Source of the DNA: Isosphaeraceae bacterium EP7 | GTDB lineage: Bacteria > Planctomycetota > Planctomycetia > Isosphaerales > Isosphaeraceae | DNA length: 64,000 bases | NCBI GenBank assembly: GCA_038400315.1 | Contig: CP151667.1 | Location: 2,553,174-2,617,173 of the forward strand | Direction of reading: 5' to 3' | Shown: positions 20,526-56,514 of the stretch, in pieces | How positions within the stretch are numbered: the first letter of the stretch is position 1 | Layout of the letters: each line of letters starts with the position of its first letter | Notes under the pieces: generated by a model | What the model was told of the DNA's origin: nothing | The model's database searches: none | What the model saw: the letters and a program-made list of their open reading frames with translations, nothing else | Made by a program: the position numbers and the translations under genes

Positions 20526-20912
20526 CGAGTAGGCTCCGCGGAGGGCTGGCACTGAGTGGAGAGTCAAGGGAGAATGGGCGTCAGGAGATGCCGATCCGCG
20601 ATCCGGTTTCGGGGCTTTTGGCAGACTAGACTGCGGCGCCAGGTGGCGAGCGAGAACTCTCGGCCCGGTCAGCTTCACCCCGGGATTGAATCATTTGACC
20701 GGGCAGTCACAGATCTACCCGGTCTGCGGTAGTCGCAGTCGTTGGCTGGTAGTCCCGTCGCGACTTCGCGGCTCGATTCCACATGCACAAAGTCAGCGAA
20801 TACGAGGGAGTCACCCCTTTTCTGCAAAACCTGACAGCGCGTGCTATTTTTTCTGGTGGAGGTCGATTCGTGGTGGACGAAACCCACCTGAGTAAGGGGT
20901 TGCGGAGTTGTA
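20526..20912. promoter_or_regulatory. Divergent control region, giant gene and sigma factor
   Basis: This 387-base gap separates the start codons of the minus-strand LEPR-XLL gene and the plus-strand ECF sigma gene and must hold both promoters. A ribosome-binding sequence (gcggag) lies 5-10 bases before the sigma factor ATG at 20913. I could not identify promoter boxes reliably. Short open frames here lack family motifs. ECF genes are often autoregulated, so a target motif of this sigma factor might be found here. Confidence 0.45.
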
Positions 20913-25890: not shown

Positions 25891-28800
25891 TCAGAGCCCC
25901 CACCAGCCCAGGGCGATGTCGGAAAGCAACTCGGTGGACTGGAGTGCCCGCTCGACAACCCTCGAGCCGGGCCGGACAGCCTCAATCACAGACCCGTCAG
26001 AATTCATCGACCCCGAGGCCGTCTCGACCCTGACGGCCTGGTAGCGTCCCGCCCCGACCGGCCTGGCCGAACTCGGGGCCGACGGGATCCGCCGACGCCA
26101 AGCCGGTCCCGTGGGAACGGTCTTCCGGACCGATGCCGCCTCGGCGAAGCTCGGGGTGATCACGGGGTCGGTCGGCCAGACCGAGGGGGGGGCGAGGGTC
26201 GCGATGAGAGGGGCCGCCCCTCCCGAGGGCGCGACGACTGCGAAGATCGCCGAGCCTGGTTCGAGAAGGTCGCGATCAGCGGCCAGGTCGAGCACACCGC
26301 CGCCCGAGCCCGCCCCAAGGGCGACTAGTCGCATCTCTAAAGGAGCGGCGGAGGGAGACAGGGCGACTTCCGGCACTGAGGGCATGCTCACCGAGGTGCC
26401 GAATGCCCCCGACATGACCACCGGCGCGGGGGCCGATTGCAGCCAAGCCGAGTTGGGGAGGGGGTGGGCGGGGGTCCCCCGCGTGTCTCTCTGATTGACG
26501 TAAAGCTCGATATACCAGCCGAGGTAGCTCTTGATCTGGTCAAGGCCAATCTCGTGTTCGGGGATGTCGAATGCCATCCAGAGAGTCGCGGCCTCGGCCT
26601 GGGTGACGTGGTTCGTGGCGTTCTTGCCCCCCGCCATGAAGCCGAGGTCGTCGGTGAAGATCGGCTCCTTCGCGGCGTTGTACTCGTCGAACAGGCCGAG
26701 GTTATGGCCTAGCTCGTGGCCGATGGCGTAGCCGAAGAACTTCCCGAGGTTGGCGAGCGAGGCCGGCGAGAACTCGCCGAAGGTCTCGGAGAAAAGGTAC
26801 AGGACTTCTCCCAGGACGACCTGATTCGCAATATTTCCCCCGGGCCAATCCGCCAGGGCCCCCCCACGCTCCGGGTTCGTGGCCTGGTCCATGACGAAGC
26901 GGATCGAGGCAAGCGAGATGTCGGACCTTAACTGGATATCGGCGTTGGAGAGGTCGTCGACTTTCTCGATGACCGAACTCCACGCCTGGTCGATGAGGGC
27001 GGCGCTGCCGACGTCGGGAACGTAGAATGCGAAATAATTGATGTCGTTGCTCCCGCCCGATTCGAAGGAGATTGCCCCTTCTTCAGCGAACGGCTTGTAG
27101 ATATCCCCGGTGAGCGACTGGTCGAGCCCGCCGAGGAATAGCTCCCAGTCTTCGTCGACAATCTGGAGGGAGCCAGTGAAGGTGAAGAGGTCCTGGATCG
27201 GCGCGAACCACGGCAGATAGACATCGGGGTTGGCCGATGCGAAGTAGACTTCGGGGTTGAGCAGGAGGGCGGTCAACTCATTTCGGAGGGAGTCGAGGTT
27301 GAGATTGACGGTCTGCCGCTCCGTGGCCCGCGCGGAGAGATCGACGGCGCCGATCTGCTTCCCTCGGAGATAGAACTTCGCGATCCCGTCGTAGGAGCCT
27401 TCCTGGTCGGAGGAGAAGCCGAGAGCGTAGAGTCCGGTGGACACCTCGGAGGCGGCGAATTTGGAGTTGGCGCCTTCGATCTGAATCCCAACCTCATGGC
27501 ACCCGTCCCCTTCGAGGGAGACGATGACCTCGCGGGTGTGCCCGGCGAGCGTGTCGGCGAACTTGAGTTTCCCGTCGTTCATGTCCTCGTCGCCGGCATC
27601 GACGAGCCGATAGACGCTGAGCTCGTCCTTCAGTTCCTTACCGACCTGACTGCCGGTCTGACTCACGAAGATAGGCCGGCTCGACACATAAATCTGCGAC
27701 CAGAGGAGCTGGTCGTGGGCGATCCCCGCGCCCTGGTCGTTCAGCGTATCGAAGTAATTTGACGCGAGTTCGGTCGTAACGGTGAAGGTGAGTGACTGGC
27801 CCGGGGCCAGGCGGACTGGGGCAGCGAGAATCACATGGGAGGCGCTGTCATTGAGAGCAGTGACGACCCCGCCGGGGAGCCCCGCGATCGACCGAATGAA
27901 GGCGTTGGCACCCACTTCGATCCGAGTGATCTCCATCCCGGTGTTGCCGAGCGGGTTGGTGATCGTGAAGGTCCGCGAGACGTCGCCGGGCTGCGCGAGG
28001 AAGACGGTGTGATCCTTCATCTCGAAGCTGTCGTCGGTGATGTTCAGGCCCTGTTGGAAGAAGATCTCGTCGAGCAGGATCTTGCTATGAACCTTCCCGG
28101 CGGAGGACCTGAGAGTGAACTTGAGCGTGCCGATCTTGCCTCGGACCTCGTCGGGGAGCTTCAGCAGGTAGGTGTCGAGGCCGGCCGCGGAGACATTGAT
28201 GACAGTCGTGTTGAGGCAATCGCCCGCGTTCAGCTCGTGCATCGTCCCGTCGTCGGTGGTGATGACGATCCGGAGCTCGTCGAGGTCGCTCGCCTCGAGG
28301 ACGTTCATGGAGAACCGGAGCCCCGCCGCCATCTCGGGGATATACATCCAGTTGTGGACGATCGAGTTGCCGGTGAAGCGATGGCTGAGCTCGACCGCGT
28401 AGTTGTTATTTCCCGTGTCCTGGAGCCGGCCCTTGCCCTCGACCTGGTCGTCGGAGAGGTCCAGGGAGGTACCGCTGAAACCGCCATGGAACGACCAGCC
28501 CGGCATGGCATACAGCCGGCTGGCATCCGCCAGGGAGAAGCGAGTGGAGCTTAAGCGGTCCTTTTCGGTCAGATACCACGTGCCCGACTCGAAGTCGCCG
28601 TTGAAGATGCTCTGGACGGGGGCGAACTTCGTGCCCGCGGTGTCAAAGACGAGGCTCTCCAGGGGGGAGACGCGTGCATTCGGGTCATCAGAGTTTGTGT
28701 TGTCATAGTAGACTTCCAGCCGATTCCCCGAGACCGGCCGCTTGTCGTCGCCGCCGCCGAGGCGACTGTAGAACCACCCGACTCCGATCCCCTCCTGGGG

Positions 28801-31800
28801 TGCTGCGTCTGGCACGCTCGCGTACTGCGCGGGCACGTACCAGGGTTTCGCGTTAAGGCTGTCCACAATGTTCTTCACATTGTCGGAGGCGATCTTTACG
28901 ACAGCGTCCTTGACGCTCCGATATCGGGCTAGCCGGACCATGAAGCCGCTCGAAGCCAGGAAGACCAGGGAGTCGACAAGTCGGCGCTGAACTAGCTCGC
29001 CGTCGGGCCCGGACTGGAACTGGAGAAGGTCCATCGCGGTCGTGCCCGCATACCATCTCCACGCCCGGCTGTGCGGGCCCACGAGCGGGAAGCCCACTCC
29101 GGCGCCCAGGGAGAGCCGGATCTCGCCCGCGTCGTCGCGAGTAAAGCCCGACATCCCGTTGAGGAGGAGGTTGAGGTCGGCACCGTCGCCAGTCTTCGGG
29201 TCCTTATCCGGGTGAAGCGGGTCAGCTCCCGGCGAGAGCGTCCGGCCGTTGGGGGTGAGGCTCCCGACGATGAGATTGTCCTCGGCCAGGCTCTGATAAT
29301 AGTTGTCGGCGAACGCGACGTTGTCCCAGACGTGGACCATCGGCTCGTGGAAGTTATCCCACTGGGCCACCACGGGCAACTCAAGGTTCGGCTGATTGAA
29401 GTCGTGGACGTCCAGGGTGGTCATCTGGATGTCGATCGCCTTGCCGTCGACCCGATTCTTTGGGAAGTAGGTCGCGAACCGCTGGATGAGTTCGCCGGTG
29501 ACGACCGTTCCCCGGCTGTGCCCGATGAAGTGGAGCGCCGACTGGAAGAGCTTGCCGTCGATCCCTGCGGAGGCGTCGAGACGGACGAGCGCCGCGAAGA
29601 GGGCATCGGCCGCGGCCTCTGAGAATCCGGAGTCGTCGATGTCCGACTCGGCGACCCAGTCGGAGACCAGCACAAGCGCCTCGCCCAGCTTCGGTGTCCC
29701 CCCTTCCCAGGTTCCGTTCTGCTTGTTGTAGACGAGCACCACGCCACCGCCGGCCGAGGTCGCGATCTCCTTGCCGAGTTCGACGAACTGATTCGCATCC
29801 GAGATCGAATTCCCGAACGCGGCGAAACCATGGGTGATGATCGTCACCCCGTTGAAGGGACCGGCGAGCTTCACCGGTGCCGTGCGGAAGGAGTACCACT
29901 TGCGAGAGCGGTAGCCGTCGGCCGTGGTCGTCTCGACCCCCCAGTAATACACCTGGCCCGCCGTCAGGCGTCGGCCGGTGGGGAGCTTGTACTCATAGAC
30001 GCCATCCCCGGCGGAGGTGATCCCGAGGCTGACCCCGTTGAGGATGCGGTTGGGGTTGAGGTCGAGAAGCTCGAAAAGATCCTCGGGGAAAAGCCCCTCC
30101 CCCGCCGGGGAGGTGCTGAGGTAGAGCTTGGTCTCGACCGGCTGCCGTCCCCCCTCGATCTTCCAGCGGAAGAGCGGCTCCAGGACGTTGCCGGTGCCGA
30201 CCGGTCCGAGCAATTCGAGTACGTTGACTGGGGTCGCCAGGCCCCTGGCCCCACCGAGACTCAGCGGGGCGTTCGCTCCGCTGTAGACCTCATAAACCGG
30301 ATCGGCGCCCTTCGTGCCCCCTTGTAGGGCATAGGCGGCGTGGAGGTCGATGGCCGCGTTGTGCAGCAGGTTTCCGGCGGCATCCTTCACCCGGCCGTCG
30401 ATGATGTCGTTGATGCCGTAGCGGGTCATCAACGATGCGTTCCTAGGGTCGCTCACCGCGGCGTCGATCGCCGTGACGTCGTACACGAAGACCGCCCCCA
30501 GGCCGCCACCCGCGATCGGGATCGTCGGCATCGAGGCGTAGAGGTAGCGGCCGTCGCCCGAGATCGCCAGCTCATACTGGAAGCCGGCGGGAATTGGCCG
30601 GGTGGCCGCCACGAGTGTCGCGGCCCCGAGAGGGTCGCGGATGATGCCGATGTTACTCCCGGCCGGGTAGTCTTCTGGTTCGAAGTGATTATGGCTGGGG
30701 ATTTCCATGTCTGGAGCGTTGTAGCCCATGACGAACGCATACTTCAGGTCGGGTGTGACGACCACCGAACGCACGTTATTGACGTCGAACGCGTCCTCGG
30801 AGCTCCCGAGCGCCATCTGGACCGAACCGGCGAGGCCCCACGCCCCTCCCTGCTTCTTCAAGACGTTGAAGCCCGAGAGGTCAGAGAGATAGTCGGTGAA
30901 GACGATCGCGTTGGGGTCGGAGGTCGAGGTGACGCCGAAGGGGGACGGGCCGACATCGATCGCCGTCTTCTTATCGAGCAGGCCGAGGAGCCCGCCGCCG
31001 AGCTCGATCACGAAAATTCGCCCCTTCTCGGAGGGGGCGTTGCGCTCGTAGCTGACCCGGGCCGGGGCGGCGACGAACAGAGTCTTCCCGTCGGTGCTGA
31101 CCGCGATCCCCCGCAGTCCCTTGGGCGCCGGGCCGACGTCGATCGTTCGGTCGAGTGAGTTGTAGTCCCTCGACGTCGGCGAGATGTCGATCACGTAGAT
31201 CGTCCCGGTGATCGAGTCCGTCACGTAGGCGAACTCGTCGCGGCGGTCGATGACGATGTGAGAGGGGGACGCATTCGGAAGCCGGATGCTGTCGATCACG
31301 TCGGGCGTGGAGGGATCGGCGTCGATCCGCTGGAACGCGACGGTGTCGATGACGTCGATCGTCCCGTCGCTGCGGAGGACGTAGGCCCGCGTCCCGTCGT
31401 TGGTCGCCGCTGTCATCTTCGAGAAGCCCGCGCCCGACAACGCGACCTGCGCCACCGGAGCCTGCGTGCGAGAGTCCAGCACGAGGAGATCCTTCGACCC
31501 GGCCGCATAGCTATAGTCGGAGGTCGCGGGGACCTGGGCCTTCAGGCTCGTCATGATCAGGTCCGGCAGGATCGCCTGCTTGATCGTCCGACGGACCGTG
31601 ATGTAGGCGACACCGAGCGTCACGCCGTGGGGGAGGACCAGGCGGATCTCCTTGCCATCGGGGCTCACCGATTCGATCTCGGCCGTGATGTCGAGGGCTC
31701 CTCGGCGATAGAAGACCTGGTTCAAGAAGTCCAGATCTGCCCCCCCCATCTCGAAGTGAACCTTCAGCTCGTCTTTCCTGGCCCCGAACGCCTCACCGGT

Positions 31801-34800
31801 GATGACGAGCCGGGTCGTGCCGGGGGCCGAGGTGAGGTCGACCCGAATCGACGAGATCCGTGGGGTGTCGGCCTCGGGCATCAATCCCACACCGGTGGGG
31901 ACCGTCACGCTGATGGCGGTGGCGCCCGGCTGGGCCTCGATGACGAAGTCCCTGATCACCGGTGCCCCCGTGCGAGGGATCGCCACCAGCCGCATGTCGT
32001 TGGAGCCGACCGGGATGTCCATGACGAAGCCGGCGAGCAGGCTCATCGAGACGCCCACGCCGATCCCGCCCGCCATGTTGGAGATCAGGTTGAAGGACGA
32101 GCCGCCGTCGTTGATGCCGGTCGTGAACTCGAGCCGCCCCTTCACCTGGCTGGTCGCTTCGGGTGCCATCCCCCACATGTAGGTGCCCTTGATCCGGACG
32201 CCGTCGTAGGGGGGCGACGTCGTCCGGGCGAAGCCATCGGTGCCGACTACCCCGACCTCGACCTGGAACCAGACCGGCATCTCGGTCCCGTCGCCCTTCG
32301 GCACCGCGCCGGCCCGGTAGACGAAGATCTTCGAGCCCGGCAAGACACCCGGCCCGACCGGGATGGCGAGCTGCGCCGGCTGGAGCAACTCCTGGTCGCC
32401 GACGTCGAGCGCGACCGCGCCGACGAACTGGATGAAGCTCGGCAACGCCATGGGGAGGTCGGCCTTCGAGACGGCCTCGATGCGGACCGTGGCCGGCGAC
32501 GTCAGGGCGCCTGGGGCGATCGTCACGAGCGAGCCGTCGGCTCCCCGGACCGCCCCGCCGCCGGTCCCGACCACCGCCGGGCCGGTCCTAGCGGCCTCGA
32601 CATGGACCTCGATCAGACGCTCGGACGGGCCGTTGATGACGGTCACCGTCGCCGAGCCCGCCGCAAGGCCACGCATCAAACCGTCGGGGCCGACCTCCAC
32701 GACACGGGGATCGCTCACGTAGTAGCGGGTGCCCGAGGCGGACGAAGTCAGGTCCTTCGAGCCGTCGAGGGTAATCTTGAGCTGGCGGCCGGAACCGCCG
32801 GTAGCCAGGGTCACCGCATCGGGGTAGACGTCGAGGCCGAACCAGTAGAGGAGGATCTGCTCGCCGGCCGGGGCGCCGACGGCCACCGCCGTCGCGGCCT
32901 GGAGTCCCTTCGCCGAGACAAGCAGGGCCGACGTCCCGTTCGCCAACGCGGTCACAACTCCCGACGAGGAGACCGAGATCACGCCGGGGTCGGAGACGGC
33001 GAAGGTCACATACGAGCCGGGGAGGACGACTCCCTGCTGGTCGGCGAAATCCCCGACCAGGACCACGGTCGTTCGCCCTCCAGCGTCGAGCGAAAGCTCT
33101 CGGGTCGTGATATCGAGCCGAACGAGCGGGGCATCGCTGACGTTTACCCGGACGATCCCCGGGGTCGAGGTGCCGTAGCCGTCATCGGCCACGTACCAGA
33201 AGCTGGCCGCGCCGGAATAGTCGGCATCTGGGGTGAAGGTGATCGTCTTGCCGTCGGCCTCCAGCCGGGCAACGCCGTGGTCGGCTCCCACAACCCGGAT
33301 AAAGACCGGGTCGTCCTCGGGGTCGGCGGCCTTCGCGGCGGCGTCGTACGAGAAGGAGAGGCCTGTGTGCGTCAGAACTTCGCCCGCCGTGACGGCCGGT
33401 GCCCGGTTGGCCGCGAACCCGAGATTGCTCCCCAGGATCTGGACGTCGGCGGCGTCGATCACCCCGTCGAGGTCGGTGTCGGCCCCGACGAGATAGCCGA
33501 ACTGCCCCGCTGAGGTTCCCTGCGCGGAGGCGATGAGCTGCCCATCGACGCCGTCGACCATGCCGTCGCCATTCACGTCGCCCGCGGCGAACATCCTGAG
33601 CGTGTAGCCCCCCGACGTGCCGCCGAGGCCCGCCACTTCGAGCAGGTGCTGCCCTTCGCGATCGATCGCGAACAGGGCGAACGCCGAATTTGCGCTGACC
33701 CGACTGATGAGCGGGGTCAGGCCGGGGATCGATGGGACCGCAGGCCGCAGGCCGCTCCCGGTCGGAGTGGTGATCTCGATGCCTATCAGGATCCGACCGT
33801 CGGCGGTCGCGCGGAGTTCCGACGGACGGACGCCGAACGCGAAGCGGGCGGTCGCGCCGGCGGCCAGGGTGCCTGATGTCGTCGAGGAGAGGTACTGGCC
33901 CGAGCCGCCGAGATCGGCGGTCAGCGGCTGGACCTGCCGGACCGGACCGTACACGACGACCTTGCCTTCGGAGGCCGTCGAGGCGTTCACCAGGTTGAGC
34001 AGGTGGGAGCCGGGGGCATAGCCATAGCGTCCCGAACGGCCGGTCGCGATGTTCCTCGCAGAGATCAGGTTTCCGCCGGCGTCATAGCCGTAGATCAGGC
34101 GAGTTCCATTGGGTGCGACGATCGAGACGATGCGGCCGGCCTCATCGTGGACGAACTGCACCGCCTCGCCCGTCGCGGCGTCGGCGATGCCGGCGTCGCT
34201 AACGAGGAACGTCTGGCCCCCCGGCAGGTTGATCTCGCGGGCCGTGCCGTCGGCGTCAAGCTGATAGGCGGTGCCGTCGGGCGCCCGGAGTGTGTACGCC
34301 TCGGCGTTGAATTCGGGAGCAGCCGGGTGATAGGGGCGGGCCGTCTTGATCTCGTAGAAGCGGTCGCCGACCCGGGTGAGGATTGCCGGGGAGGCGTCGA
34401 GTCGGTAGTCGTTGCCCGCGTCGGGGGTGAAGCTCGGGACGTAATAGGTTAGCCCGGAGACCGTGCTCGACTTAGGGGTGAAAGTGAAGCCGAGCCGACG
34501 CCCGTCGGGGACGGTCAGGTAGACCCTCGTCCCGGCCCGGAACGGCGTGTAGACGCCGAGCGCTTCGCGGCCGGTCGGCTCGACGCCAGCCTGGAGGTTG
34601 AACTCGACGTTGGACAGCCGCCATCCTGGCCCGAACGAGCCGGGACGTCCCGCGTCCAGCGAGTCGTAGGCCCGCACCAGGCTGAGGCCCGTCCCGCCCA
34701 GGGTAACCGCGAGGTCGGTTTCGGAGTGAAGGAACTGAGCCGGCTTGGATGCACCGGAGATCTCGACCGTGACATCAGCCGTCTTCGAACGCCCGCCGAT

Positions 34801-49800: not shown

Positions 49801-52800
49801 CCTGAGGTAGGAGCCGTTGCCGTCGTAGACGTAGAAGTCCACGTAGGTCGTGTAGAAGCTGACGGCGGCGGAGTCGGGGGCCTCGGCGGAGACGGCCAGA
49901 CGCTCCCCAGCCTTCCCCGTGAACTTCCAGACGTCAACATCCCCCGCCGACAGATGGCCACGCCCCAGCCCCTGCCGGAGCCCGGTGGACAACGAGGCGA
50001 AGGGGAGCGCCGTGGCGGTCGCGGTCGACTCGTTGGGCTCGGCCTCGGCGGTGAAGCCGGCCAGCGCCTCCACGCGGAACTCGCGGACGAGCGGGGCGGC
50101 CAGCGGGTTGCCGACCCGGTCCCTCAGCCCCGCCTTCGCCGTCAGCCGGTACGACCCCGGCGCCAGCGGCCTGGCCGGCGCGAAGCTGGCGGAGGTCCCG
50201 CCCGTGTAGGGGGGCGAGGCCGACAGCGCGATGACCACGTCATCGCCGGTGCCGAACGACCCGTCGGGGCCGGCGGAGCGGAGCTCGACGTTGGACGGGT
50301 CGTTGACCGCGGCCGGGTCCATCTCCTCGGAGAAGCTCAGACCGACGGAACCCACAAGACGGGACGTCGCCTGCCCCGGGGCGGGCAGACCCGGGGCGGA
50401 GACGACCGGCGCCACCCGGTCGGTGATGGAGATCGACAGGAGATACTGCGAGAGCAGGCCCCAGGTCCCGTCCCCGGCGCGGACGACCAGGATGTATCGG
50501 CCGTCCTCCCCGGCGGGCACGGTGAAGGCGAGCGAGCCCTCTCCCGGCCCGGCGGCGGCGACCTCCTGGCCGTCGTCCTCGCGGACGATGGCCAGGGAGG
50601 CCACCAGCGGGCTCGCCGAGGGACGGGAGAGTGTCAGAGTGATCGCCTGCCCGGCGTTGAGGAGCCCGACCTCGAATTGGTCCTCCTCGTACTCCTCGGT
50701 GATCGCGCCGGCGACGGTCATGCTCAGGCGCTTGGCGGCGACGTCGGCGACGAGCTGGGCGTCCCCCTCGGCCTGCAGCGGGGCGGCCACCAGCGAGGCG
50801 CGGAACCGGTACTCACCGGAGTAGCCGTAGTAGCCCGGCTGCGCGCGGATCGTGTACTCGCCGTCGGCGGGCAGCGCCAGCGGCGAGTAGAGGGACCCGG
50901 ACGGCGAGGCGGAGAACTGCGCCAGGTACGAGCCGTTGCCGTCGTAGACGTAGAAGTCCACGTAGGTCGTGTAGAAGCTGACGGCGGCGGAGTCGGGGGC
51001 CTCGGCGGCGATGGCCAGACGCTCCCCAGCCTTCCCCGTGAACTTCCAGACGTCAACATCCCCCGCCGACAGATGGCCACGCCCCAGCCCCTGCCGGAGC
51101 CCGGTGGACAACGAGGCGAAGGGGAGCGCCGTGGCGGTCGCGGTCGACTCGTTGGGCTCGGCCTCGGCGGTGAAGCCGGCCAGCGCCTCCACGCGGAACT
51201 CGCGGACGAGCGGGGCGGCCAGCGGGTTGCCGACCCGGTCCCTCAGCCCCGCCTTCGCCGTCAGCCGGTACGACCCCGGCGCCAGCGGCCTGGCCGGCGC
51301 GAAGCTGGCGGAGGTCCCGCCCGTGTAGGGGGGCGAGGCCGACAGCGCGATGACCACGTCATCGCCGGTGCCGAACGACCCGTCGGGGCCGGCGGAGCGG
51401 AGCTCGACGTTGGACGGGTCGTTGACCGCGGCCGGGTCCATCTCCTCGGAGAAGCTCAGACCGACGGAACCCACAAGACGGGACGTCGCCTGCCCCGGGG
51501 CGGGCAGACCCGGGGCGGAGACGACCGGCGCCACCCGGTCGGTGATGGAGATCGACAGGAGATACTGCGAGAGCAGGCCCCAGGTCCCGTCCCCGGCGCG
51601 GACGACCAGGATGTATCGGCCGTCCTCCCCGGCGGGCACGGTGAAGGCGAGCGAGCCCTCTCCCGGCCCGGCGGCGGCGACCTCCTGGCCGTCGTCCTCG
51701 CGGACGATGGCCAGGGAGGCCACCAGCGGGCTCGCCGAGGGACGGGAGAGTGTCAGAGTGATCGCCTGCCCGGCGTTGAGGAGCCCGACCTCGAATTGGT
51801 CCTCCTCGTACTCCTCGGTGATCGCGCCGGCGACGGTCATGCTCAGGCGCTTGGCGGCGACGTCGGCGACGAGCTGGGCGTCCCCCTCGGCCTGCAGCGG
51901 GGCGGCCACCAGCGAGGCGCGGAACCGGTACTCACCGGAGTAGCCGTAGTAGCCCGGCTGCGCGCGGATCGTGTACTCGCCGTCGGCGGGCAGCGCCAGC
52001 GGCGAGTAGAGGGACCCGGACGGCGAGGCGGAGAACTGCGCCAGGTACGAGCCGTTGCCGTCGTAGACGTAGAAGTCCACGTAGGTCGTGTAGAAGCCGA
52101 CGGTGGCGGAGTCGGGGGCCTCGGCGGCGATGGCCAGACGCTCCCCAGCCTTCCCCGTGAACTTCCAGACGTCAACATCCCCCGCTGTGAGAAACCCTTG
52201 CCCGGCACCCCATCGGAGGTCGGCGGGTCCGGTAGTCAGGGTCAGGGGAGTGGCATTTGAAGCCGTGTTGTTCGGCTCGACTTCCCGCTGGAAGCCGGAC
52301 TCCGCGGGGCTCAGGACACGGAACTCGCGAGTGAGGACCGAGCTCGCCACCGGGTTGCCCGCGCGGTCGGTCAGGCCCGAGCTGACCTTCAGCCGAAGCT
52401 TGCCCGGAAGGACGGGAAGGTTCCCCACGGTATACGTCACCGAAGCAGACGGGGCGGTCGTCTCGGAGGGGATAAGCGTATAGAGGATATCGTCGGCCGT
52501 GTCGAACTGGTCGTCGGACCCGGCCGCGCGGAGTTCGACCAGCGACCCGTCGTTCAGCGTCGAGGGGGCCATCAACTCGGAGAACGTGAGCGTGAACTGC
52601 CGGAACGACGGAACCCCTGTCCCGTCGGGGGGGAGCGTGGTCGAGACCAGCGTCGGAGCGGTCCCATCGGCCAGGAGCACGTTGAGGAGGTACTGCGCCT
52701 GCATCCCCAGCCGGGCCAGGCCCTCGACCTTGACGTAGTAGGTCGCATTGGTGGCGACGAAGCTGAGGGCGCCCGAGGTCCCGGAGGCGATTGGCGTGGT

Positions 52801-55800
52801 GCCGCCGACCTCCAGGATCGAGAGCCTCACGTCGCCTGGGGAGAGTGAGCTCCAGGGCGGAAGGACGAGGTTCAAGCTCACGGCCCCGCCCACGGCGGGC
52901 ACATCCAACTTGAACATGTCGACCGAGGAAATCCCCGTCGGGAAGGCCCCGGCGACGCGGGCCTGCAACCCCCCCCGGTACGCCTCGAAGTTCGTGATCG
53001 GCGTCGCCGAGGCTTGCGAATCGTTCGATTCCTGCTCAAGCTGAGCGCCCCGGACCGGCCGGGCGAGATCGAGGCGGAGACGGTAACGACCCTGCCCTCC
53101 AGAGACGCGCACGAGGAAGGTACCCGGAGTTGGGATCTTGAAGTTCGCGACCTCGGCCGCCGACCCGCTCGTGCTCGTCAGGACGCTCCCGCTGATACTG
53201 AGAAGCGCGATCGTGAAGTAGCCCGACGACCCATCTCCTTCGAGCCGGATCGTGACCCGATCCCCAGCCTCGGCATCGAAGCTCCAGTGGTCGAGGTCGG
53301 CGGCGTTCGCGATCGAGCCGACGCCGAGGGCCGACGAGATCCCGGACCCAGGCGCGAGCTCGACCGCCACCAGCGGCGATGCGCCTGCCGGCGTGTCGTT
53401 CCCGAGCCTCTCGATTGTCCCGCCGGGGGGCGCCGCGACGGAGAATCGCCCCTCATAGGGCTGCGCGACGCGACCCGCGCGGTCGGTCAGGCCCGATGCC
53501 CGCAGGCGATAGAGACCCGGCTGGAGCGGCGAGGTCGCGATCGCCAGCGAGGCCGAGGCGCCGTCCAGGGACGCCGCGATCGGGATCGACGCGTCATCGC
53601 CGGTGCCGAGCAGGCCGTCGGCTCCCGCGGAGGTCAACACAAACTGCGCCCCCCCCAGCAAAGAGGCGAGCAATTCCTCATTGTAGGTCAGGGTGATCCG
53701 GTCGACCGCCGACGCCACCACGCCCGGCCCGGCCAGGGGCGCAGTGCTCACCGTCCAGGGGGACCGGCCGGCCGCCTCGGCCCCCAGGTTAATCGTGCCG
53801 TCGAAGTGGTTGGGGGTCGCGTCGGCCACGACATTGCCCGTGCCCGCGTCGAAATTCCAGGCCCCGACGAGGCCAGCCTCCGCCCCGGAAACCGGAAGTG
53901 TCCTCCGGTCGCGGACCTCCGCGGCCGTCCGGGCCCTCGACCAGATTCGGAGAGCATCGACCTGGCCAGCCCAGGGCGAGGCCCCTTCGGCCCGGCCGAT
54001 GCGGAGCGGCCCCTCGACCCGCGGCACGGCCACAGTCGAGGTGGCCGTCCCATTCTCCTGGCCATCCCTGTAGAAGCGGTAGGTCTCGCCCGACTTCACC
54101 AACGCCAGGTGGTACCAGGAGTCGAGCGAGGGCGTCCAGGATGACGAGGAGAGCGTCACATCGTCGCCAATCTCGGTCCGGATCCGGAACACGGTCGATC
54201 CCGCGGACGTCCCGGATGCCCGCGCGAAACCGAAGACCCAGCTATCCTTGGCGGCATCCGGCCCCTCGTCCTTGCCGACGAGCGCCGCGATCGTCCCGTC
54301 CGGCAGGGCCGAGAACTTCACCCAGGCTTCGATCGTGGCCTGCTCGCCCGGGTCGAGCGAACGTACGGGGGGATCCGCCACGAGGACCTGATCGTCGATG
54401 CCGTCGAACGTCAAGGCCGAGCCGGCGCCGTCGGCCGGGAGCGAGGTGCCCGCGATCGCCGGGGCCGAGCCATCGGCGATCGCAACCCGGAGGAGATAAG
54501 TCGACCGTAGCCCGGCTGTCGAGGTCGTGTTGGCGGCCACCCGAACCTGATAGGACCCGTCGGCCGTCGCGGTGAAAGTCGCGTGATTCGAGCCGACGGC
54601 CTGGGCCACGACGGCCCCGTCGGGCCCGATCAGCCGGATCATCGCGTCGAGCGTGCTGAACGACGGGAACGCAAGCGACAGGTCGATCGCATCGCCCGTA
54701 CGGAGCTGGCCCAGGCGGTAGAAGTCGACGTCCGAGGAGGTCACGATCGAGCCCGAGACGCTCCCCGTCGCGCGTTGATTGCCGGCCGGGGTGAGTCGGA
54801 TCGGACTGGCCTGCAGCGAGGAATCATTCGACTCCTGCTCGGCGGAGAAACCTCGCGACAGATCGACGCGGAGGGCGTACGGGGCCGACGTGATGATACC
54901 CGGGGTGTTGTAGTAGGTCCGGGCCCGGAGGTAGTATGTCCCGTCGATCGTCGCCTGGAAGGCGGATCGGGGACGCGAGGCGGGGAATCCATAGTAATCG
55001 TCGGCCTGGACCAGGAGGGTGCCGGCCGAGTCGCGCAGCTCGAACACGAGCGAGTTGGAGTAAGTGCCCCCTTCGCCCGCCACGCCGATCCAGTCGCCGG
55101 CCTTGGCCTCGAACCTCCAGAAATCGACGTCGCCGCCAACGCCCAGCGAGCCGATGCCATACATCGAGAAGAAGCCGGACCCGGTGGGCGACTCGGTGGG
55201 CACCAGCGGCGTGGCCCCTGCCGCCGTGTCGTTCCCCTCCCCCTCGATCTTCCCCCCCTCGGGTGCCTTCACGGAGAACCGCCGTTCGAACGCGGGCGCC
55301 TCAAGGCCCGCGCGATCGGTCAGCCCCGACGTCAGGAGTCGGTAGGAGCCCGGCTGAAGTGGGCCCCCCACGATCGTCGCGATCACCTGATTCCCCGCGG
55401 CCATCGTCGGGACGAGGGCGATCGCACGGTCATCGCCCGTGCCGAACGAGCCGTCGGCGCCGGCCCAGGTGAGGGCGAGGTTGGCCGGGGTTGCGGAGGA
55501 GATCAGCAACTCCTCGCTATAGGTCAACTTGAACGAGTCGACCGCCTCCACGACGCTCGCCCCCTCGCCCGGCAGCGAGGATCCGAGCAACGCCGGGGCC
55601 GTAACATCAGCGACCTCGACCGAGAGGAGATACTGGGCAAAGATCCCGGCCTCTGCCGGCCCCGCTTCGGTGGTGGCTGAGACGCGGGCGAGGTATTGAT
55701 CCGCAGCGGCGACCGTGAAGACCGCGTGCGATGCCCCGACGGTCGAGGCTACGACCTGGCCGGTCGAGGTGCGGATCAACTCGACGCGAGTAGCGAGCGA

Positions 55801-56514
55801 ACTCCCCGGGATCGGCGTGGCCACGAGGTCGATCTTGTCTCCGACGCCGAACCGGCCAAGGTCAAAGTGATCGACATCCCCATCGCGGAGGATCGCCCCC
55901 GAGGCCCGACCCGAGGCTCGGCCAGCCCCCGCCTTCGTCAGCTCGATCCGGGAAGGCCCGTAGACATAGTCATTGGACTCGACCTCGGAGAGGACGCCCC
56001 GGCCGACATCGACGCGGAGCGAGTACTGATCGAGACTGTCGCCATACGTCCTCGCCCGGACCAGGTACGTTCCATCCGCGGCCGCAACAACGTTGGCGAG
56101 CGTAGGGATGCCGCCGTAGTAGTCGTAGACCTGCCCCAGCGACGTCAGGTTTGGATCCAGGAGCTCGAGAATGACCGATTGCCCGTAAAGGCCCCCCTCG
56201 GCCGCCACGGTGAGCCGGTCCCCCGCCTTCGCGCTGATGCTCCAGTAATCCTGGTCGCTGTAGGGGGTGATCGCCCCCCGGCCAGCCGCCGAGAAGAAGC
56301 CGGACCCGGGAATGGGCTCGGTCGCCACGAGTGGAGTCGCCTGGATGGGGAGGTCGTTCGGCTCGAGCTCCTGGGTGAGCGAGAGCATCATCAGCTGCTC
56401 AAGGCGCTCGACGCCGGGGTGCGAGACCCGGGGAGCTCGCCGGGGTGCCTTCCCCTTCCGGCCCGATGACGACTTCTGGTTGAGGCCCTTGCCCAATCCG
56501 ATGGATCGCGACAT
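25891..56514 (-). CDS. Giant mosaic surface protein, about 10,207 residues
   Basis: One uninterrupted frame of 30.6 kb. I prefer ATG at 56514 (MSRSIGLGKG), with ATG at 56559 as the alternative. The N-terminus is basic and carries VERLEQLMML, like a degenerate LEPR-XLL. Approximate residues: 48-2795 PPC and SbsA-like Ig modules (ELEPNDLP, RAGLEAPAFERRF) with a LamG domain at 700-910; 2797-4844 sixteen CARDB domains (each opening like PDLKVTDL); 4940-5040 IPT/TIG; 5730-5970 propeller-like; 6205-7060 He_PIG/cadherin-like repeats; 7252-7540 RHS-like segment (YGYDAGGNLISA); 7639-7702 dockerin-like EF hands (GDVNGDGMVD); 8320-8670 YncE-like propeller; 8886-9090 alpha/beta hydrolase with GHSRG; about 9933 HELGHNLGLFDEYN metalloprotease motif. 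Probably exported, over 1 MDa, for binding or degrading macromolecules; the role is inferred. Confidence 0.85.
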   Translation of the reverse strand: MSRSIGLGKGLNQKSSSGRKGKAPRRAPRVSHPGVERLEQLMMLSLTQELEPNDLPIQATPLVATEPIPGSGFFSAAGRGAITPYSDQDYWSISAKAGDRLTVAAEGGLYGQSVILELLDPNLTSLGQVYDYYGGIPTLANVVAAADGTYLVRARTYGDSLDQYSLRVDVGRGVLSEVESNDYVYGPSRIELTKAGAGRASGRASGAILRDGDVDHFDLGRFGVGDKIDLVATPIPGSSLATRVELIRTSTGQVVASTVGASHAVFTVAAADQYLARVSATTEAGPAEAGIFAQYLLSVEVADVTAPALLGSSLPGEGASVVEAVDSFKLTYSEELLISSATPANLALTWAGADGSFGTGDDRAIALVPTMAAGNQVIATIVGGPLQPGSYRLLTSGLTDRAGLEAPAFERRFSVKAPEGGKIEGEGNDTAAGATPLVPTESPTGSGFFSMYGIGSLGVGGDVDFWRFEAKAGDWIGVAGEGGTYSNSLVFELRDSAGTLLVQADDYYGFPASRPRSAFQATIDGTYYLRARTYYNTPGIITSAPYALRVDLSRGFSAEQESNDSSLQASPIRLTPAGNQRATGSVSGSIVTSSDVDFYRLGQLRTGDAIDLSLAFPSFSTLDAMIRLIGPDGAVVAQAVGSNHATFTATADGSYQVRVAANTTSTAGLRSTYLLRVAIADGSAPAIAGTSLPADGAGSALTFDGIDDQVLVADPPVRSLDPGEQATIEAWVKFSALPDGTIAALVGKDEGPDAAKDSWVFGFARASGTSAGSTVFRIRTEIGDDVTLSSSSWTPSLDSWYHLALVKSGETYRFYRDGQENGTATSTVAVPRVEGPLRIGRAEGASPWAGQVDALRIWSRARTAAEVRDRRTLPVSGAEAGLVGAWNFDAGTGNVVADATPNHFDGTINLGAEAAGRSPWTVSTAPLAGPGVVASAVDRITLTYNEELLASLLGGAQFVLTSAGADGLLGTGDDASIPIAASLDGASASLAIATSPLQPGLYRLRASGLTDRAGRVAQPYEGRFSVAAPPGGTIERLGNDTPAGASPLVAVELAPGSGISSALGVGSIANAADLDHWSFDAEAGDRVTIRLEGDGSSGYFTIALLSISGSVLTSTSGSAAEVANFKIPTPGTFLVRVSGGQGRYRLRLDLARPVRGAQLEQESNDSQASATPITNFEAYRGGLQARVAGAFPTGISSVDMFKLDVPAVGGAVSLNLVLPPWSSLSPGDVRLSILEVGGTTPIASGTSGALSFVATNATYYVKVEGLARLGMQAQYLLNVLLADGTAPTLVSTTLPPDGTGVPSFRQFTLTFSELMAPSTLNDGSLVELRAAGSDDQFDTADDILYTLIPSETTAPSASVTYTVGNLPVLPGKLRLKVSSGLTDRAGNPVASSVLTREFRVLSPAESGFQREVEPNNTASNATPLTLTTGPADLRWGAGQGFLTAGDVDVWKFTGKAGERLAIAAEAPDSATVGFYTTYVDFYVYDGNGSYLAQFSASPSGSLYSPLALPADGEYTIRAQPGYYGYSGEYRFRASLVAAPLQAEGDAQLVADVAAKRLSMTVAGAITEEYEEDQFEVGLLNAGQAITLTLSRPSASPLVASLAIVREDDGQEVAAAGPGEGSLAFTVPAGEDGRYILVVRAGDGTWGLLSQYLLSISITDRVAPVVSAPGLPAPGQATSRLVGSVGLSFSEEMDPAAVNDPSNVELRSAGPDGSFGTGDDVVIALSASPPYTGGTSASFAPARPLAPGSYRLTAKAGLRDRVGNPLAAPLVREFRVEALAGFTAEAEPNESTATATALPFASLSTGLRQGLGRGHLSAGDVDVWKFTGKAGERLAIAAEAPDSAAVSFYTTYVDFYVYDGNGSYLAQFSASPSGSLYSPLALPADGEYTIRAQPGYYGYSGEYRFRASLVAAPLQAEGDAQLVADVAAKRLSMTVAGAITEEYEEDQFEVGLLNAGQAITLTLSRPSASPLVASLAIVREDDGQEVAAAGPGEGSLAFTVPAGEDGRYILVVRAGDGTWGLLSQYLLSISITDRVAPVVSAPGLPAPGQATSRLVGSVGLSFSEEMDPAAVNDPSNVELRSAGPDGSFGTGDDVVIALSASPPYTGGTSASFAPARPLAPGSYRLTAKAGLRDRVGNPLAAPLVREFRVEALAGFTAEAEPNESTATATALPFASLSTGLRQGLGRGHLSAGDVDVWKFTGKAGERLAVSAEAPDSAAVSFYTTYVDFYVYDGNGSYLRQFSASRSGSLSSPLVLPADGEYTIRAQPGYYGYSGEYRFRASLVAAPLQAEGDVKLVADSSTRTLNATIVGSFNNEYESDTISLGILNAGQVITLTLAKPAGSGLSALLTILQIEGFSQTQVASSASGVTTLTYTVPASATPRSYSASLQRSGGTFGLLSQYLLSISVTDRVAPTVSLSNLPEPGGTTSRLVGSVGLSFSEEMDPAAVNDPSNVELRSAGPDGSFGTGDDVVIALSASPPYTGGTSASFAPARPLAPGSYRLTAKAGLRDRVGNPLAAPLVREFRVEALAGFTAEAEPNESAGTATVLPLTTTFTGLSSGAGRGYIIAGDLDTWKFVGKAGDQATIVAEAIDSVTQSFSTTSVNLSLLGPDGRLIASFSAYKNPSQLAPVSLPSDGTYTIQLSQGYYGYQGEYRFRASLASAPLTLAVDPGDSLTQSTALPLQTSGNTRLASTAGVILLPGDIDTYALGRIEAGQTVSLAVRTPAGSGLVPAVSLYDAASGYLVEELGGLSGDALARVRITRSGTYFAVVWGRDGTGGLTALYVLDVVVSPSGAATVPNLVVSSVELPTTAAPKSGEAVTFTYTVTNSGNLATAGGWSDRVVLSKNAIYGDADDIPLGQFARSGSLAVGASRTESSSLTLPDGIEGDYYLLVAADAFNEVNEFFNEGDNTRASARTFHITRSPYADLVVEGVSGSSADSSGRLTLSWRTFNRGSSVASEGWRERIIVRRADNNGLVSSTTRNVEGGLAVGASRAGSLELSLQLGVRYTVEITTDLDDRLYEFNAQGHEAAEGNNLVQAEIVPSQAARPDLAVETFTASASSVIGDPAEVTLTWTVKNGGGAAPGVSRWLDRIVLVRDGSTPGPEVAIIEVERSGALGAGQSYTVSRTVTLPGGLDGTYRLILRVDASGTLDEGTGEGNNLSDGVILGVTPRSLADLVVNSVSPPGTAASGRAVSVSWVVGNRGTASARASSWVDRIVLSADAVLDPSDVELGRVARTSALAAGGSYTGSGSFVLPEGISGSYHIFVIADAEDAIDEGNSEGNNAGRTVSPIAVTLTPPPDLKIESISVPASAQPDETIRVRWTGTNAGPGAAAGPWVDRLYLSTDGRVEGATLLAAVARSGSLASAAQYQAFADVVIPRVTAGGYRLLVVADADGQVYEHSGESNNSLHVPLAIRNADLKPTTITGPAIAVAGDEIVVHWAVSSQGGAPALGTWVDRVYLSSDATVDDGDMLLVEVDHTGPQVAGSSYEVTRTVTLPRTLVGGTYRFLVVADAGDQIYEPGAESNVAASSQTRIAASPFADLVTSAVTAPPLTIGDPVRVTVGWTVTNQGTGPSGAVPWVDVVIASKDTVVGNGDDIVLGRFERPSALSVGESYAASETFRLPPGFQGRYTLFVKADANNAVDEFDYEGNNAGRAPGFFDVVPSPYADLIVGQVEPSASGQSGKSLTIRWTVANQGIGLTSTPSWRDSVYLTTDPTGQTGLISLGSFDHSGHLAVGASYERTATAVLPHGISGTYYVVVATGGPYEFEYTQNNTRVGGPIEVTLTPPPDLTVTDIIAPADVVSGSKIDVTWTVRNAGPGDAIGTWTDTLSLRRVDGTGAIPLGSFSFGGGLQAGRTYSRSEQFTLPENIQGLYRLEVTTNSGLSLYEHGASGNNTTADDATTLVRLAPHPDLQVSSVTAPGRVQAGGTVSLEFVVINQGTVPTTAPRWSDSVYFSLDGVISGDDILIGTMENGSALLPSETYRTKTPGLVVPKRYRGPAFLIVRADSGAAVNEFPNEDNNVFVQEIYVDPLPPSDLVISDVVVPSQAFDGSEIEVRFRVTNRGANPTYEANWTDTIWLAVNKVRPDPRKFKTDDNVQYDMVVGQVAHSGRLGVGESYEQVVRITLPRRVSGELYITPWADTYDVELEDTFSNVINTDDPNELDNNNYKARAIKVLLTPPPDLVVTTVTPQAQAVGGDSFTVRWAVANQGRNETEEGSWYDAVYLSDFPDLTTPNAERWYLGSIQHTGKLGVGQSYAAEATFALTPVAAGKYVIVVTGAGVWEGPYGNNNVSHGSTSVVRRDPADLLVESIRTEPVSYSGEETTVSWTVKNAGAETWSGTRYWTDYVYLSPDDTFIPGRATHIGSVIRGNQPTLGAGESYTQSAQFTLPAGIGGEYYIYVITDPNGSNGERGGYNDISRDSFISRGYEDASNNLGMAPLPVVYREPDLKVTDLIAPGGTPLSGDRVRVAWTVTNIGTRDTRQLEWIDRVYLSRDASLDSGDQLLGSWIRSVGLAKGASYDASLDVDLPDGIEGDFYLLVFVDSNITGPVPPADPSLRYEYGISVGMARVPEFADEGNNITASAQPIELRTPPDLLVTAVSAPEHTLIGQAFEVTYTVRNAGAGDTPPKQSSWDDLIYLSRDAFLDLDSDRYLGSIRHTGGLASGGSYTETLTFRAPRDLAGPFYVFVYTDASRGRARGVVFELDKEGNNASPSPRPMILDVPPPSDLQVDTIRLPGSARSGEVVDVTWTVFNRGDFQAEGSWTDAVYLSEDAVWDVNDRLLGRVSHSGTLLSGGSYEAALRATLPPARPGQYRIIVRPDIFNEVYEGTNESNNRTASADPLNVTVDELHLNIPLETTLSTGDERLYKVVVGLGQTLRVTLTTPAQNAANELFLRYGDVPDGITYDASYQGPLAPNQTVIIPLTRPGTYYILVRGHSEPAPSTPTTLLAEVLPLSITAVSPDAGGDSRWVTTTILGAQFQPNAIVKLIRPGFAEYEPTRYEVVDSTKIIATFDLRDAPHGLYDIRVVNPNGDTAVSPYRYLVETAMETDVRIGLGGPRVLAPGQTGTYGFSLESVSNVDAPYVYFAFGVPELGINPNLGLRYLDFFQNLAGGPGSADLGDVPWASLNSTINTGGYNLAPGYAFDLYARSYAGRTFNTVIYPGLLERLAEDPEFLEEFALEPEKVAFQFHLVATATALTRDEFIARQTADALRLREKILADPAANRTLVLLAADSDTWTTAFLSALEEVGLLRPVDQAPPIRTDPRLVSLVATLSSGLLIGPAGDPIRSEGDLVKFFEQVREWYGNDPNLLGPITSTDPLISPAQPIDEFDLNLSHPTHFESFNVYVPFGDLQLDIPPGNPPVPPDFASYFSTAGSSTPLATLTGPIGYGANGFVPASQALPYTIRFENPAQSATSANEIRIVTKLDDDLDPRSFRLGDLRIGDIEVHIPSGRGIFQGDFDFIRTKGFILRVSAGLDVQSNTATWLIQAIDPETGEVLEDVDAGLLRPNDAKGSGSGFVGYTAVPKAGIATGTEIRAEARVLLDNAPPQDTNVLVALVDGAAPRTTVIVEAIVEGGSDYQVRWSSVDEASGSGVRHATVYVSEDGGEYRIWLRQTTATEAIYQGRAGHEYRFLVLATDQAGNREKPDAGVQAPDDGSGANLGALPSVPETTEFDPGPPAPIGQPSSNPLYLEAERAIPAAVPGTRPSGFTELIRPFVGASFATGIAQSHAGIGPMAIVELPDRSVILSGGPGRNLLFRLSAAGGQVGEAFATLPLPIFDLALDANGGLWATTGGGPLLRLDPDTGAILGRFGDGLTQALAIQPGTGTIFVSSGKGIETFDPATSTFRHLSDVRVGSLAFAPDGSLWAASWPSRGNVLRFDLTASRVRPELMLELKTQVDSIAFGKAGTHLAGLLFVSNNAGPRAGVGSELIMVDLASLRRVAVARGGTRGDVVRTTSDGRVLISQTGQVDVLSPVMAPRVASTNPPTGGVVPLPMGSVSVTFDRDMFVGTATDPRSVLNPANYRLVGASGGAVTIRSVAYDRGSRTASLVFDSLAPDTYVLRVLTSLRSVEDLPLAEEYAGTFRAVNDFSTMVAVKLSRGRADAAHKTITYDVTVTNNSTSNLQPAIWLSLEGLNPLDVEPVSSGAVYRDGAWWIDLSTQVLGGLLGPGQTTSPRSITFSNPSGGRLSWKSGVLALPFPEAAPTFLSAPALTAQVGQPYDYQASAAGAAGTKLGYLLVSGPDGMTVDSATGRVRWLPTVASPIAATVVLQVYDSKGRSATQEFTIDVSGTNLAPVVAALPDKIEGREGMPLEIALQATDPEGDLLTYWAENLPPGAVFDPMQRALIWTPGFDAAGTYPDVRLIVGDGIHRVVRSTTLVIAPTNQAPTLVRPADRTILEGDRLRIAMIADDTEGDAVVYHSSMLPAGATLNPLTGVLEWTPGYFQHGTYQIPVTVTDGSLSTTREFNVTVLNANAAPSFDDLSGWQVREGQVLRFRAFAADPDNPGHIPQDRLPDGTLTPLEGTSSLVAYTVTGLPQGAAFDPATGMITWLPGYSAAGSYSITISARDDGDGTGMPLTTTVVVPITVLNTNRPPVFAPIANVSVDRGGVLDVPIRVIDPDGNPVAIAAAGLPGFGLPPFAAFVDRGDGTALLRFAPGTGHRGNYTITLRTTDEGDGDGAWAALSAEQTFIVTVVSPNDPPSLGHVGDTVAVIGQELRLALFARDLDEESLTFEADGLPAGARIEPSSIYGEATLIWTPNQGQAGIYDVTVRVLDGGNGDPASSVSASRTFRLVARASNAAPTLAAVGDVTVAEGTPLVLDLSAADPDGDRLTYSARNLPAGARLDAVTGRLSWAPNLFQAGIYAGIVVTASDGHGTASQTFRVEVTNTNQAPTLTPLAPQSGREGTPLQFTLVATDPDADPLTYSVASSLPDGARFDARTGRFLWTPGFEQAGDYLLAFRALDPDGLTSMVDVMLFIDNVNRAPSLDASHHSATLGEWLEFDLVAADADAGTTLTFAAQGLPQGAMLDPATGHVRWRPGAGQAGDTLVTFSATDGEATASRTVLLRASIAPPKPQVHIELTPSFPVVPGQRVLVHAIAGSLAQIVGLTLTVDGVPVPIDAQGRAEVVAGRFGRLILHATATDADGLIGTAEAVLKVRDPNDLASPDVALSPTLQGLKITAPTDLIGRAFDTNLDEWTLELAPLGSDTFLRIAGGHDSRSDGVLARLDPGSLANGFYRLRLTAADIGGRSKTADVTVEISGASKPAQFLHSETDLAVTLGGTGLSLVRAYDSLDAGRPGSFGPGWRLSNVEFNLQAGVEPTGREALGVYTPFRAGTRVYLTVPDGRRLGFTFTPKSSTVSGLTYYVPSFTPDAGNDYRLDASPAILTRVGDRFYEIKTARPYHPAAPEFNAEAYTLRAPDGTAYQLDADGTAREINLPGGQTFLVSDAGIADAATGEAVQFVHDEAGRIVSIVAPNGTRLIYGYDAGGNLISARNIATGRSGRYGYAPGSHLLNLVNASTASEGKVVVYGPVRQVQPLTADLGGSGQYLSSTTSGTLAAGATARFAFGVRPSELRATADGRILIGIEITTPTGSGLRPAVPSIPGLTPLISRVSANSAFALFAIDREGQHLLEVAGLGGTSGGYTLRMFAAGDVNGDGMVDGVDGQLIASAQGTSAGQFGYLVGADTDLDGVIDAADVQILGSNLGFAANRAPAVTAGEVLTHTGLSFSYDAAAKAADPEDDPVFIRVVGADHGVARLEADGKTITFTPDADYSGAASFWYVADDGYGTSTPGIVRVNVSDAPLVRLDITTRELSLDAGGRTTVVLVGDFADQQGVVLPGSYVTFAVSDPGVISVSSSGVVTALANGTSALLVSAKGLQAATAVAVGAPAGEQILLYWFGLDVYPDAVTLATGGSGRQLKITLDGSKDLTSSASGTRYYVSDPRVVEVGPDGLMRGLAAGSATVTVINGPSERLIEVHVEAARTGPAVVGTGGGAVRGADGSLVTIAPGALTSPATVRIEAVSKADLPMALPSFIQFVGAVALDVGDQELLQPAQLAIPVGPGVLPGSKIFVYRAGAVPKGDGTEMPVWFQVEVGVVGTDGFARTTSPPYDGVRIKGTYMWGMAPEATSQVKGRLEFTTGINDGGSSFNLISNMAGGIGVGVSMSLLAGFVMDIPVGSNDMRLVAIPRTGAPVIRDFVIEAQPGATAISVTVPTGVGLMPEADTPRISSIRVDLTSAPGTTRLVITGEAFGARKDELKVHFEMGGADLDFLNQVFYRRGALDITAEIESVSPDGKEIRLVLPHGVTLGVAYITVRRTIKQAILPDLIMTSLKAQVPATSDYSYAAGSKDLLVLDSRTQAPVAQVALSGAGFSKMTAATNDGTRAYVLRSDGTIDVIDTVAFQRIDADPSTPDVIDSIRLPNASPSHIVIDRRDEFAYVTDSITGTIYVIDISPTSRDYNSLDRTIDVGPAPKGLRGIAVSTDGKTLFVAAPARVSYERNAPSEKGRIFVIELGGGLLGLLDKKTAIDVGPSPFGVTSTSDPNAIVFTDYLSDLSGFNVLKKQGGAWGLAGSVQMALGSSEDAFDVNNVRSVVVTPDLKYAFVMGYNAPDMEIPSHNHFEPEDYPAGSNIGIIRDPLGAATLVAATRPIPAGFQYELAISGDGRYLYASMPTIPIAGGGLGAVFVYDVTAIDAAVSDPRNASLMTRYGINDIIDGRVKDAAGNLLHNAAIDLHAAYALQGGTKGADPVYEVYSGANAPLSLGGARGLATPVNVLELLGPVGTGNVLEPLFRWKIEGGRQPVETKLYLSTSPAGEGLFPEDLFELLDLNPNRILNGVSLGITSAGDGVYEYKLPTGRRLTAGQVYYWGVETTTADGYRSRKWYSFRTAPVKLAGPFNGVTIITHGFAAFGNSISDANQFVELGKEIATSAGGGVVLVYNKQNGTWEGGTPKLGEALVLVSDWVAESDIDDSGFSEAAADALFAALVRLDASAGIDGKLFQSALHFIGHSRGTVVTGELIQRFATYFPKNRVDGKAIDIQMTTLDVHDFNQPNLELPVVAQWDNFHEPMVHVWDNVAFADNYYQSLAEDNLIVGSLTPNGRTLSPGADPLHPDKDPKTGDGADLNLLLNGMSGFTRDDAGEIRLSLGAGVGFPLVGPHSRAWRWYAGTTAMDLLQFQSGPDGELVQRRLVDSLVFLASSGFMVRLARYRSVKDAVVKIASDNVKNIVDSLNAKPWYVPAQYASVPDAAPQEGIGVGWFYSRLGGGDDKRPVSGNRLEVYYDNTNSDDPNARVSPLESLVFDTAGTKFAPVQSIFNGDFESGTWYLTEKDRLSSTRFSLADASRLYAMPGWSFHGGFSGTSLDLSDDQVEGKGRLQDTGNNNYAVELSHRFTGNSIVHNWMYIPEMAAGLRFSMNVLEASDLDELRIVITTDDGTMHELNAGDCLNTTVINVSAAGLDTYLLKLPDEVRGKIGTLKFTLRSSAGKVHSKILLDEIFFQQGLNITDDSFEMKDHTVFLAQPGDVSRTFTITNPLGNTGMEITRIEVGANAFIRSIAGLPGGVVTALNDSASHVILAAPVRLAPGQSLTFTVTTELASNYFDTLNDQGAGIAHDQLLWSQIYVSSRPIFVSQTGSQVGKELKDELSVYRLVDAGDEDMNDGKLKFADTLAGHTREVIVSLEGDGCHEVGIQIEGANSKFAASEVSTGLYALGFSSDQEGSYDGIAKFYLRGKQIGAVDLSARATERQTVNLNLDSLRNELTALLLNPEVYFASANPDVYLPWFAPIQDLFTFTGSLQIVDEDWELFLGGLDQSLTGDIYKPFAEEGAISFESGGSNDINYFAFYVPDVGSAALIDQAWSSVIEKVDDLSNADIQLRSDISLASIRFVMDQATNPERGGALADWPGGNIANQVVLGEVLYLFSETFGEFSPASLANLGKFFGYAIGHELGHNLGLFDEYNAAKEPIFTDDLGFMAGGKNATNHVTQAEAATLWMAFDIPEHEIGLDQIKSYLGWYIELYVNQRDTRGTPAHPLPNSAWLQSAPAPVVMSGAFGTSVSMPSVPEVALSPSAAPLEMRLVALGAGSGGGVLDLAADRDLLEPGSAIFAVVAPSGGAAPLIATLAPPSVWPTDPVITPSFAEAASVRKTVPTGPAWRRRIPSAPSSARPVGAGRYQAVRVETASGSMNSDGSVIEAVRPGSRVVERALQSTELLSDIALGWWGL
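49922..52159 (-). repeat. Two near-identical 1,119-base tandem units, in frame
   Basis: Within the giant gene, 49922-51040 and 51041-52159 are almost base-for-base the same: for example 50231-50824 and 51350-51943 translate identically over 197 codons in the opposite frame as well. Each unit encodes 373 residues: a PPC-type domain (AGDVDVWKFTGKAGERLA), a second PPC half and an SbsA-like Ig domain ending VREFRVEALA. Differences cluster near the outer edges. A diverged third unit lies at about 48850-49921, with patches (about 48920-49225 and 49655-49740) that remain nearly identical to the other two. The unit length is a multiple of three, so gain or loss of a copy keeps the frame. Confidence 0.9.

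Follow-up and report, generated by a model that had tools for sequence, protein, structure and literature searches.

A giant gene of Isosphaeraceae bacterium EP7 shares a colinear core with giants of other phyla and has a candidate export route

Giant genes of 5-36 kb are already known in planctomycetes, Isosphaeraceae included (Kohn et al. 2016, PMC5177795; Ivanova et al. 2017, PMC5352709), and both of these reports cite Reva and Tummler 2008. As that earlier survey is cited in PMC11573180, bacterial giant genes would be strain-specific. In contrast with this description, the giant gene reported here, found in a stretch of 64,000 nt (the window), is colinearly conserved across phyla. Also known is the N-terminal motif described by the NCBIfam model NF012209 ("LEPR-8K", LEPR-XLL domain-containing proteins), which is common to five homologous giants; however, the model covers this 24-residue motif only and is silent on the shared core and on the exporter, and the window copy is too degenerate for it. 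Type I secretion, with a C39-peptidase ABC transporter and HlyD, is likewise a known system, and its genes follow the giant in Calothrix and Plectonema but were not found beside it in the planctomycete and proteobacterial loci tested, barring chance-level matches to ABC ATPases. Finally, a DUF6531/RHS remnant is shared with the Rhs and polymorphic toxins, reviewed in PMC3482391, and a full Rhs core is present in one relative, G019. Compared with these toxins, the giant differs in having a CARDB/He_PIG stalk, a conserved hydrolase and no variable toxin tip. What is added here is the colinear core shared across phyla, together with the exporter cassette. A literature search whose reach left out subscription journals and preprints returned no papers on CARDB together with He_PIG, none on the PqqD-SecA-HlyD set as a unit and, judged by titles and abstracts, no relevant paper on CARDB giants and horizontal gene transfer.

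The giant gene occupies positions 25891-56559 on the minus strand (10,222 codons counted from the first ATG) and is the longest open reading frame of the window. The original prediction of a genuine giant gene, drawn from a 30.6-kb open frame, is borne out, the translation having a single stop, at its end, and a coding signature in every block; the start proposed there, at 56514, corresponds to Met16 and is an alternative start. In every 500-codon block the GC content of the second codon position is the lowest, that of the third position being 0.80-0.95. The longest stop-free run in shuffled sequence is of 340 codons on average and 495 at most, and the best antisense run is of 829 codons. Moreover, pN/pS is below 1 in every block of the comparison with Aquisphaera insulae (one pair compared), and this is the sole claim made on selection because synonymous sites in that pair are near saturation. 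The contig has a length of 7.0 Mb and the assembly is 99.9% complete. One weak spot of this assembly is an in-frame tandem duplication of 1,119 nt (unit 1, aa 1455-1827, 51079-52197; unit 2, aa 1828-2200, 49960-51078; both on the minus strand), whose units are 99.3% identical and adjoin a third, diverged one. The number of units could be misassembled here, and the N-terminal region of the giant seems to grow by tandem duplication. Such a near-identical repeat would fit an assembly or annotation artefact fusing several genes, but the coding signature runs unbroken along the frame and colinear intact frames are present in many separate genomes; the artefact was rejected for these reasons and is regarded as extremely improbable.

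The domain order originally described was recovered by Pfam, with matches to PPC, Big_5, Laminin_G_3, CARDB, He_PIG, DUF6531/RHS and Dockerin_1; all the features of the giant given below lie on the minus strand. The N-terminal region (aa 61-2800, 48160-56379) consists of PPC and Big_5 repeats with one Laminin_G_3 domain (aa 720-882, 53914-54402, E 2.5e-25), and separate strong matches to it were found in planctomycete relatives only. It is followed by the CARDB array (PF07705, aa 2806-4870, 41950-48144), where the sixteen units of the original prediction agree with our count of about 16, made from 14 motif matches, including one away from a unit end, and completed by eye in the translation; Pfam reports 14 overlapping stretches. 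The central core module of 867 aa (PPC-IPT-unannotated-Ig, 39457-42057), used as the query that found the cross-phylum relatives, gave an AF2 model of β-sandwich folds with a pLDDT of 84, and this model resembles the Ig-type arrays of integrins, macroglobulins, adhesins and mastigonemes. Next come a first propeller-like region (aa 5720-5990, 38590-39402), with a weak Reg_prop match and repeats read in the translation, a He_PIG/cadherin-like Ig array (aa 6205-7085, 35305-37947, E 2e-85), a degenerate Rhs segment with DUF6531 and a single RHS/YD repeat (aa 7276-7503, 34051-34734), a dockerin type I domain (aa 7659-7711, 33427-33585) and a second propeller-like region with SGL and YncE-type matches (aa 8350-8710, 30430-31512). 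The IPT and propeller assignments are based on weak matches, the model and colinearity with homologues. The dockerin clears its cutoff genome-wide and is one of three in the genome. No cohesin was found there by Pfam, the same search being positive in one of 14 control genomes; for this reason, the dockerin does not belong to a scaffold of the cellulosome type here.

No Pfam match was obtained in the last ~1,700 aa, whose reading is based on family alignments, sequence motifs and fold searches. An α/β-hydrolase-type domain (aa 8895-9330, 28570-29877) is indicated by the family alignment, a partial AF2 model and Foldseek, and carries the motifs GHSRG (Ser 9015), TLDVHD (Asp) and GPHSR (His 9163). 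The best Foldseek match is the cell surface hydrolase 3lp5, with weaker matches to PETase, cutinase and lipase, all obtained with a model of mean pLDDT 53.7 that is confident in its first half only. The motifs agree with this first half of the fold, and the triad was assigned by motif because the second half is modelled without confidence; a profile search of solved structures gave nothing usable for this domain. According to the family alignment, 10 of 15 members, with the window copy among them, retain both Ser and His; the nucleophile Ser is replaced in the other five, three of which also lack the matching His. It follows that the domain can be maintained as a pseudo-enzyme. Also, no member has lost His while keeping Ser, which marks the two residues as functional and speaks for catalysis on some target. 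Further on, a metzincin-like protease domain (aa 9770-10050, 26410-27252) bears the motif HELGHNLGLFDEY (H9948, H9952 and D9958), of the sought form HExxHxxGxx(H/D). A Peptidase_M10 (matrixin) match is present in eight of 12 family members and the window copy has no Pfam peptidase match; the profile search of solved structures returned weak matrix-metalloprotease matches for the protease alignment. In the window protein, as in the majority of full-length members, the motif lies close to the C terminus; three cyanobacterial frames have it close to the N terminus. The proposed scaffold with two enzyme heads thus stands in part: the protein is probably a secreted scaffold with two enzyme-type domains at its C-terminal end, but "enzyme heads" has to be qualified, given the members with a replaced hydrolase nucleophile.

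A comparison with other genomes places the gene in a family. Residues from ~2,811 to ~8,500-10,019 align colinearly with other giants over 5,000-7,500 residues each, at 37-54% identity, the main BLASTP alignments being at 37-44% (12 genomes read at length) and that of a second Aquisphaera gene at 54%. The aligned giants, with frames mostly of 10,000-13,100 codons, belong to planctomycetes, cyanobacteria and alpha-, beta- and gammaproteobacteria, and some are on plasmids; the alignment with the Accumulibacter giant reaches aa 10019 and so takes in the metzincin-like domain. Accumulibacter (L193-L196, G070:C3) has a 12,263-codon giant followed by a 6,383-codon core-bearing frame, which ends early. 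Within the taxonomic family of the window, homologous giants were found in three other genomes among the 45 searched, namely Aquisphaera insulae, one copy of which is an intact frame of 11,156 codons, and two further ones. Having a colinear core that extends from CARDB to hydrolase for more than 5,000 residues, the window giant is a member of what we call the CARDB-core giants. The order of modules, considered unusual in the original prediction, is not so, because it is kept colinear across three phyla in full-length genes.

The reach of this family became visible with the core module, a first scan of genome contigs with the hydrolase-protease region having found no relatives. Alignment of the core against one genome per species gave 121 relatives, of which 80 loci were kept, at 41-64% identity and from Planctomycetota, Cyanobacteriota, Pseudomonadota, Lentisphaerota and Nitrospirota; in nearly all of these the frame stays open over the whole of the stretch that was fetched, as a rule about 22 kb. 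The core is found on plasmids of Anabaena, Calothrix, Rhizobium, Mesorhizobium and Pseudosulfitobacter, and no relatives of the giant were found in phage records or viral contigs. In the core tree the phyla interleave, with several separate positions required for the rows of planctomycetes and of proteobacteria; this is in keeping with transfer between phyla, with ancient paralogy as an alternative. As read from these alignments, the conserved colinear core comprises the CARDB array, the central β-sandwich module, a propeller, the He_PIG array, the degenerate Rhs segment, the dockerin-like site, the second propeller and the hydrolase-type domain, accompanied by an N-terminal extension that varies with lineage and by a zinc-protease motif at the C-terminal end; the proteobacterial giants also have an exporter-type operon linked to them.

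At its N terminus, the window protein has a degenerate LEPR-XLL-type motif, VERLEQLMMLS (aa 50-60, 56380-56412), in a position like that of LEPRLLLS in the homologues. NF012209 matches five homologous giants at 29-35 bits (cutoff 17) and gives no match to the N terminus of the window giant. With a regular expression widened to admit the window and Aquisphaera forms, a LEPR-like motif was found in all 15 of the non-cyanobacterial giants whose N terminus is visible and in none of six cyanobacterial ones, a count that excludes two motif-less frames of uncertain true start (L092 and L109). Its background is 0.0015 per 350 aa, and it occurs hardly anywhere else in the giants.

In proteobacteria, the giant often heads an operon with genes for DUF3467, GAF-HlyD, PqqD/intramembrane-protease/HlyD and a short SecA. 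For example, most or all of these components follow it in Sphingopyxis, Sphingobium, Aurantiacibacter, Roseisalinus, Pseudooceanicola, Pseudosulfitobacter and Chromatiales; in Mesorhizobium, DUF3467 and an adaptor come after the giant, and in Accumulibacter the PqqD and short SecA genes are upstream of it. Matches to HlyD models and to a model of an intramembrane HExxH protease were also obtained with the PqqD protein. In Calothrix and Plectonema, the giant is followed by a PPIC isomerase gene as well as by the type I secretion genes already mentioned. Among 299 Sphingomonadaceae genomes, a close exporter (E <1e-150) is present in three, two of which have the giant core; in the third, the exporter lies directly after a different LEPR-XLL-type giant of 10,078 codons. 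At E 1e-3, BLASTP gave no match between this other giant (L226-L228, G267:C1:1019788-1050021) and that of the window. The link to this candidate exporter is strong on genomic grounds in proteobacteria. However, the exporter is unlinked in the stretches read around the giants of Aquisphaera, Phycisphaerae, Comamonadaceae, one betaproteobacterium and Anabaena, and no exporter component was found in the 64-kb window or within 20 kb on either side. In the window genome (G000) the components are encoded elsewhere on the chromosome, the PqqD gene in an operon with two HlyD-type adaptors and the short SecA at another site, so that for this organism a link to the giant is putative. Of the 45 genomes in the window's taxonomic family, 42 (G000 among them) carry the PqqD exporter gene, with or without the giant core, which suggests a general system there at best. 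That the PqqD/intramembrane-protease/HlyD protein, the GAF-HlyD adaptor and the short SecA export megadalton LEPR-XLL proteins, and that exporter and giant moved together between phyla, is a tentative proposal to which we give slightly less than an even chance.

With regard to the adjoining genes, directly downstream of the giant lies a gene for a 229-aa secreted protein with a PEP-CTERM-like C-terminal tail (25097-25786, minus strand). This protein resembles a domain inside other giants, located after the protease in several of them, and is possibly a split-off part of the giant or an anchoring partner. A second large gene of the window (13404-20678, minus strand) encodes 2,424 aa with SdrD_B, FG-GAP and carboxypeptidase-regulatory domains and has a LEPR-like motif, GLEERMLLAS, near its N terminus. 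An IS1595-type transposase gene (58449-59522, plus strand) is found 1.9 kb upstream of the giant.

Taken as a whole, we consider it probable that the gene encodes one exported protein of about 1 MDa, forming a filament with distal hydrolase and protease, and that its family has probably spread between phyla partly by horizontal transfer, sometimes via plasmids. The LEPR-XLL-like N terminus would mark the giant for export through the PqqD/intramembrane-protease/HlyD and short-SecA machinery, the β-sandwich arrays (CARDB, PPC and He_PIG) and the propellers would form a long surface or secreted filament, and the hydrolase and protease, at its distal end, would act on an extracellular target or take part in filament processing. 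A reading that has a real, if lesser, claim is that of a cell-surface adhesin or matrix filament whose hydrolase and protease merely process or release the filament itself. The likeness of the central module to Ig-type arrays of adhesins and related proteins is in its favor, as are the retention of the hydrolase domain in the third of members that lost the nucleophile, the HExxH motif present in most members at varying sites, and the related domain borne by the PEP-CTERM-like neighbour. Nonetheless, the conservation of Ser and His in two-thirds of the members, with His lost only along with Ser, argues for catalysis on something.

The Rhs segment raises another alternative, a polymorphic-toxin-like giant derived from Rhs, whose stalk would present a C-terminal enzyme acting on competing cells. 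Besides DUF6531 and the RHS repeat of the core, this could account for the relative G019, with its full YD repeats and Rhs core, for C-terminal ends that vary among relatives beyond the hydrolase, and for the tandem of giant and second core-bearing frame in Accumulibacter. We regard it as unlikely: the YD-repeat shell, Rhs core motif and variable tip of Rhs toxins are lacking from the window giant, where the segment is a remnant with one RHS repeat (G019 alone showed the full set), the hydrolase is conserved and not polymorphic, and no adjoining immunity gene was recognised in an unsystematic look at the loci examined. A similarly low probability is given to the scaffold first envisaged for this gene, capturing and degrading polysaccharide or prey with docking through the dockerin. 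It would explain why a LamG-type lectin domain, a dockerin, a hydrolase and a protease are joined in one chain, but the genome has three dockerins only and no cohesin match, and no CAZyme catalytic domain is found among the Pfam matches of the giant.

Returning to the exported filament, the middle of the giant recurs domain for domain in other genomes, often beside apparent export machinery, which suggests a member of a travelling family and not a local oddity. With a colinear core of 6,000 residues across several phyla, often by an exporter, such giants could be traced as a family, their secretion route tested and their partners predicted, which bears on how bacteria may carry proteins of more than 1 megadalton across their envelope.
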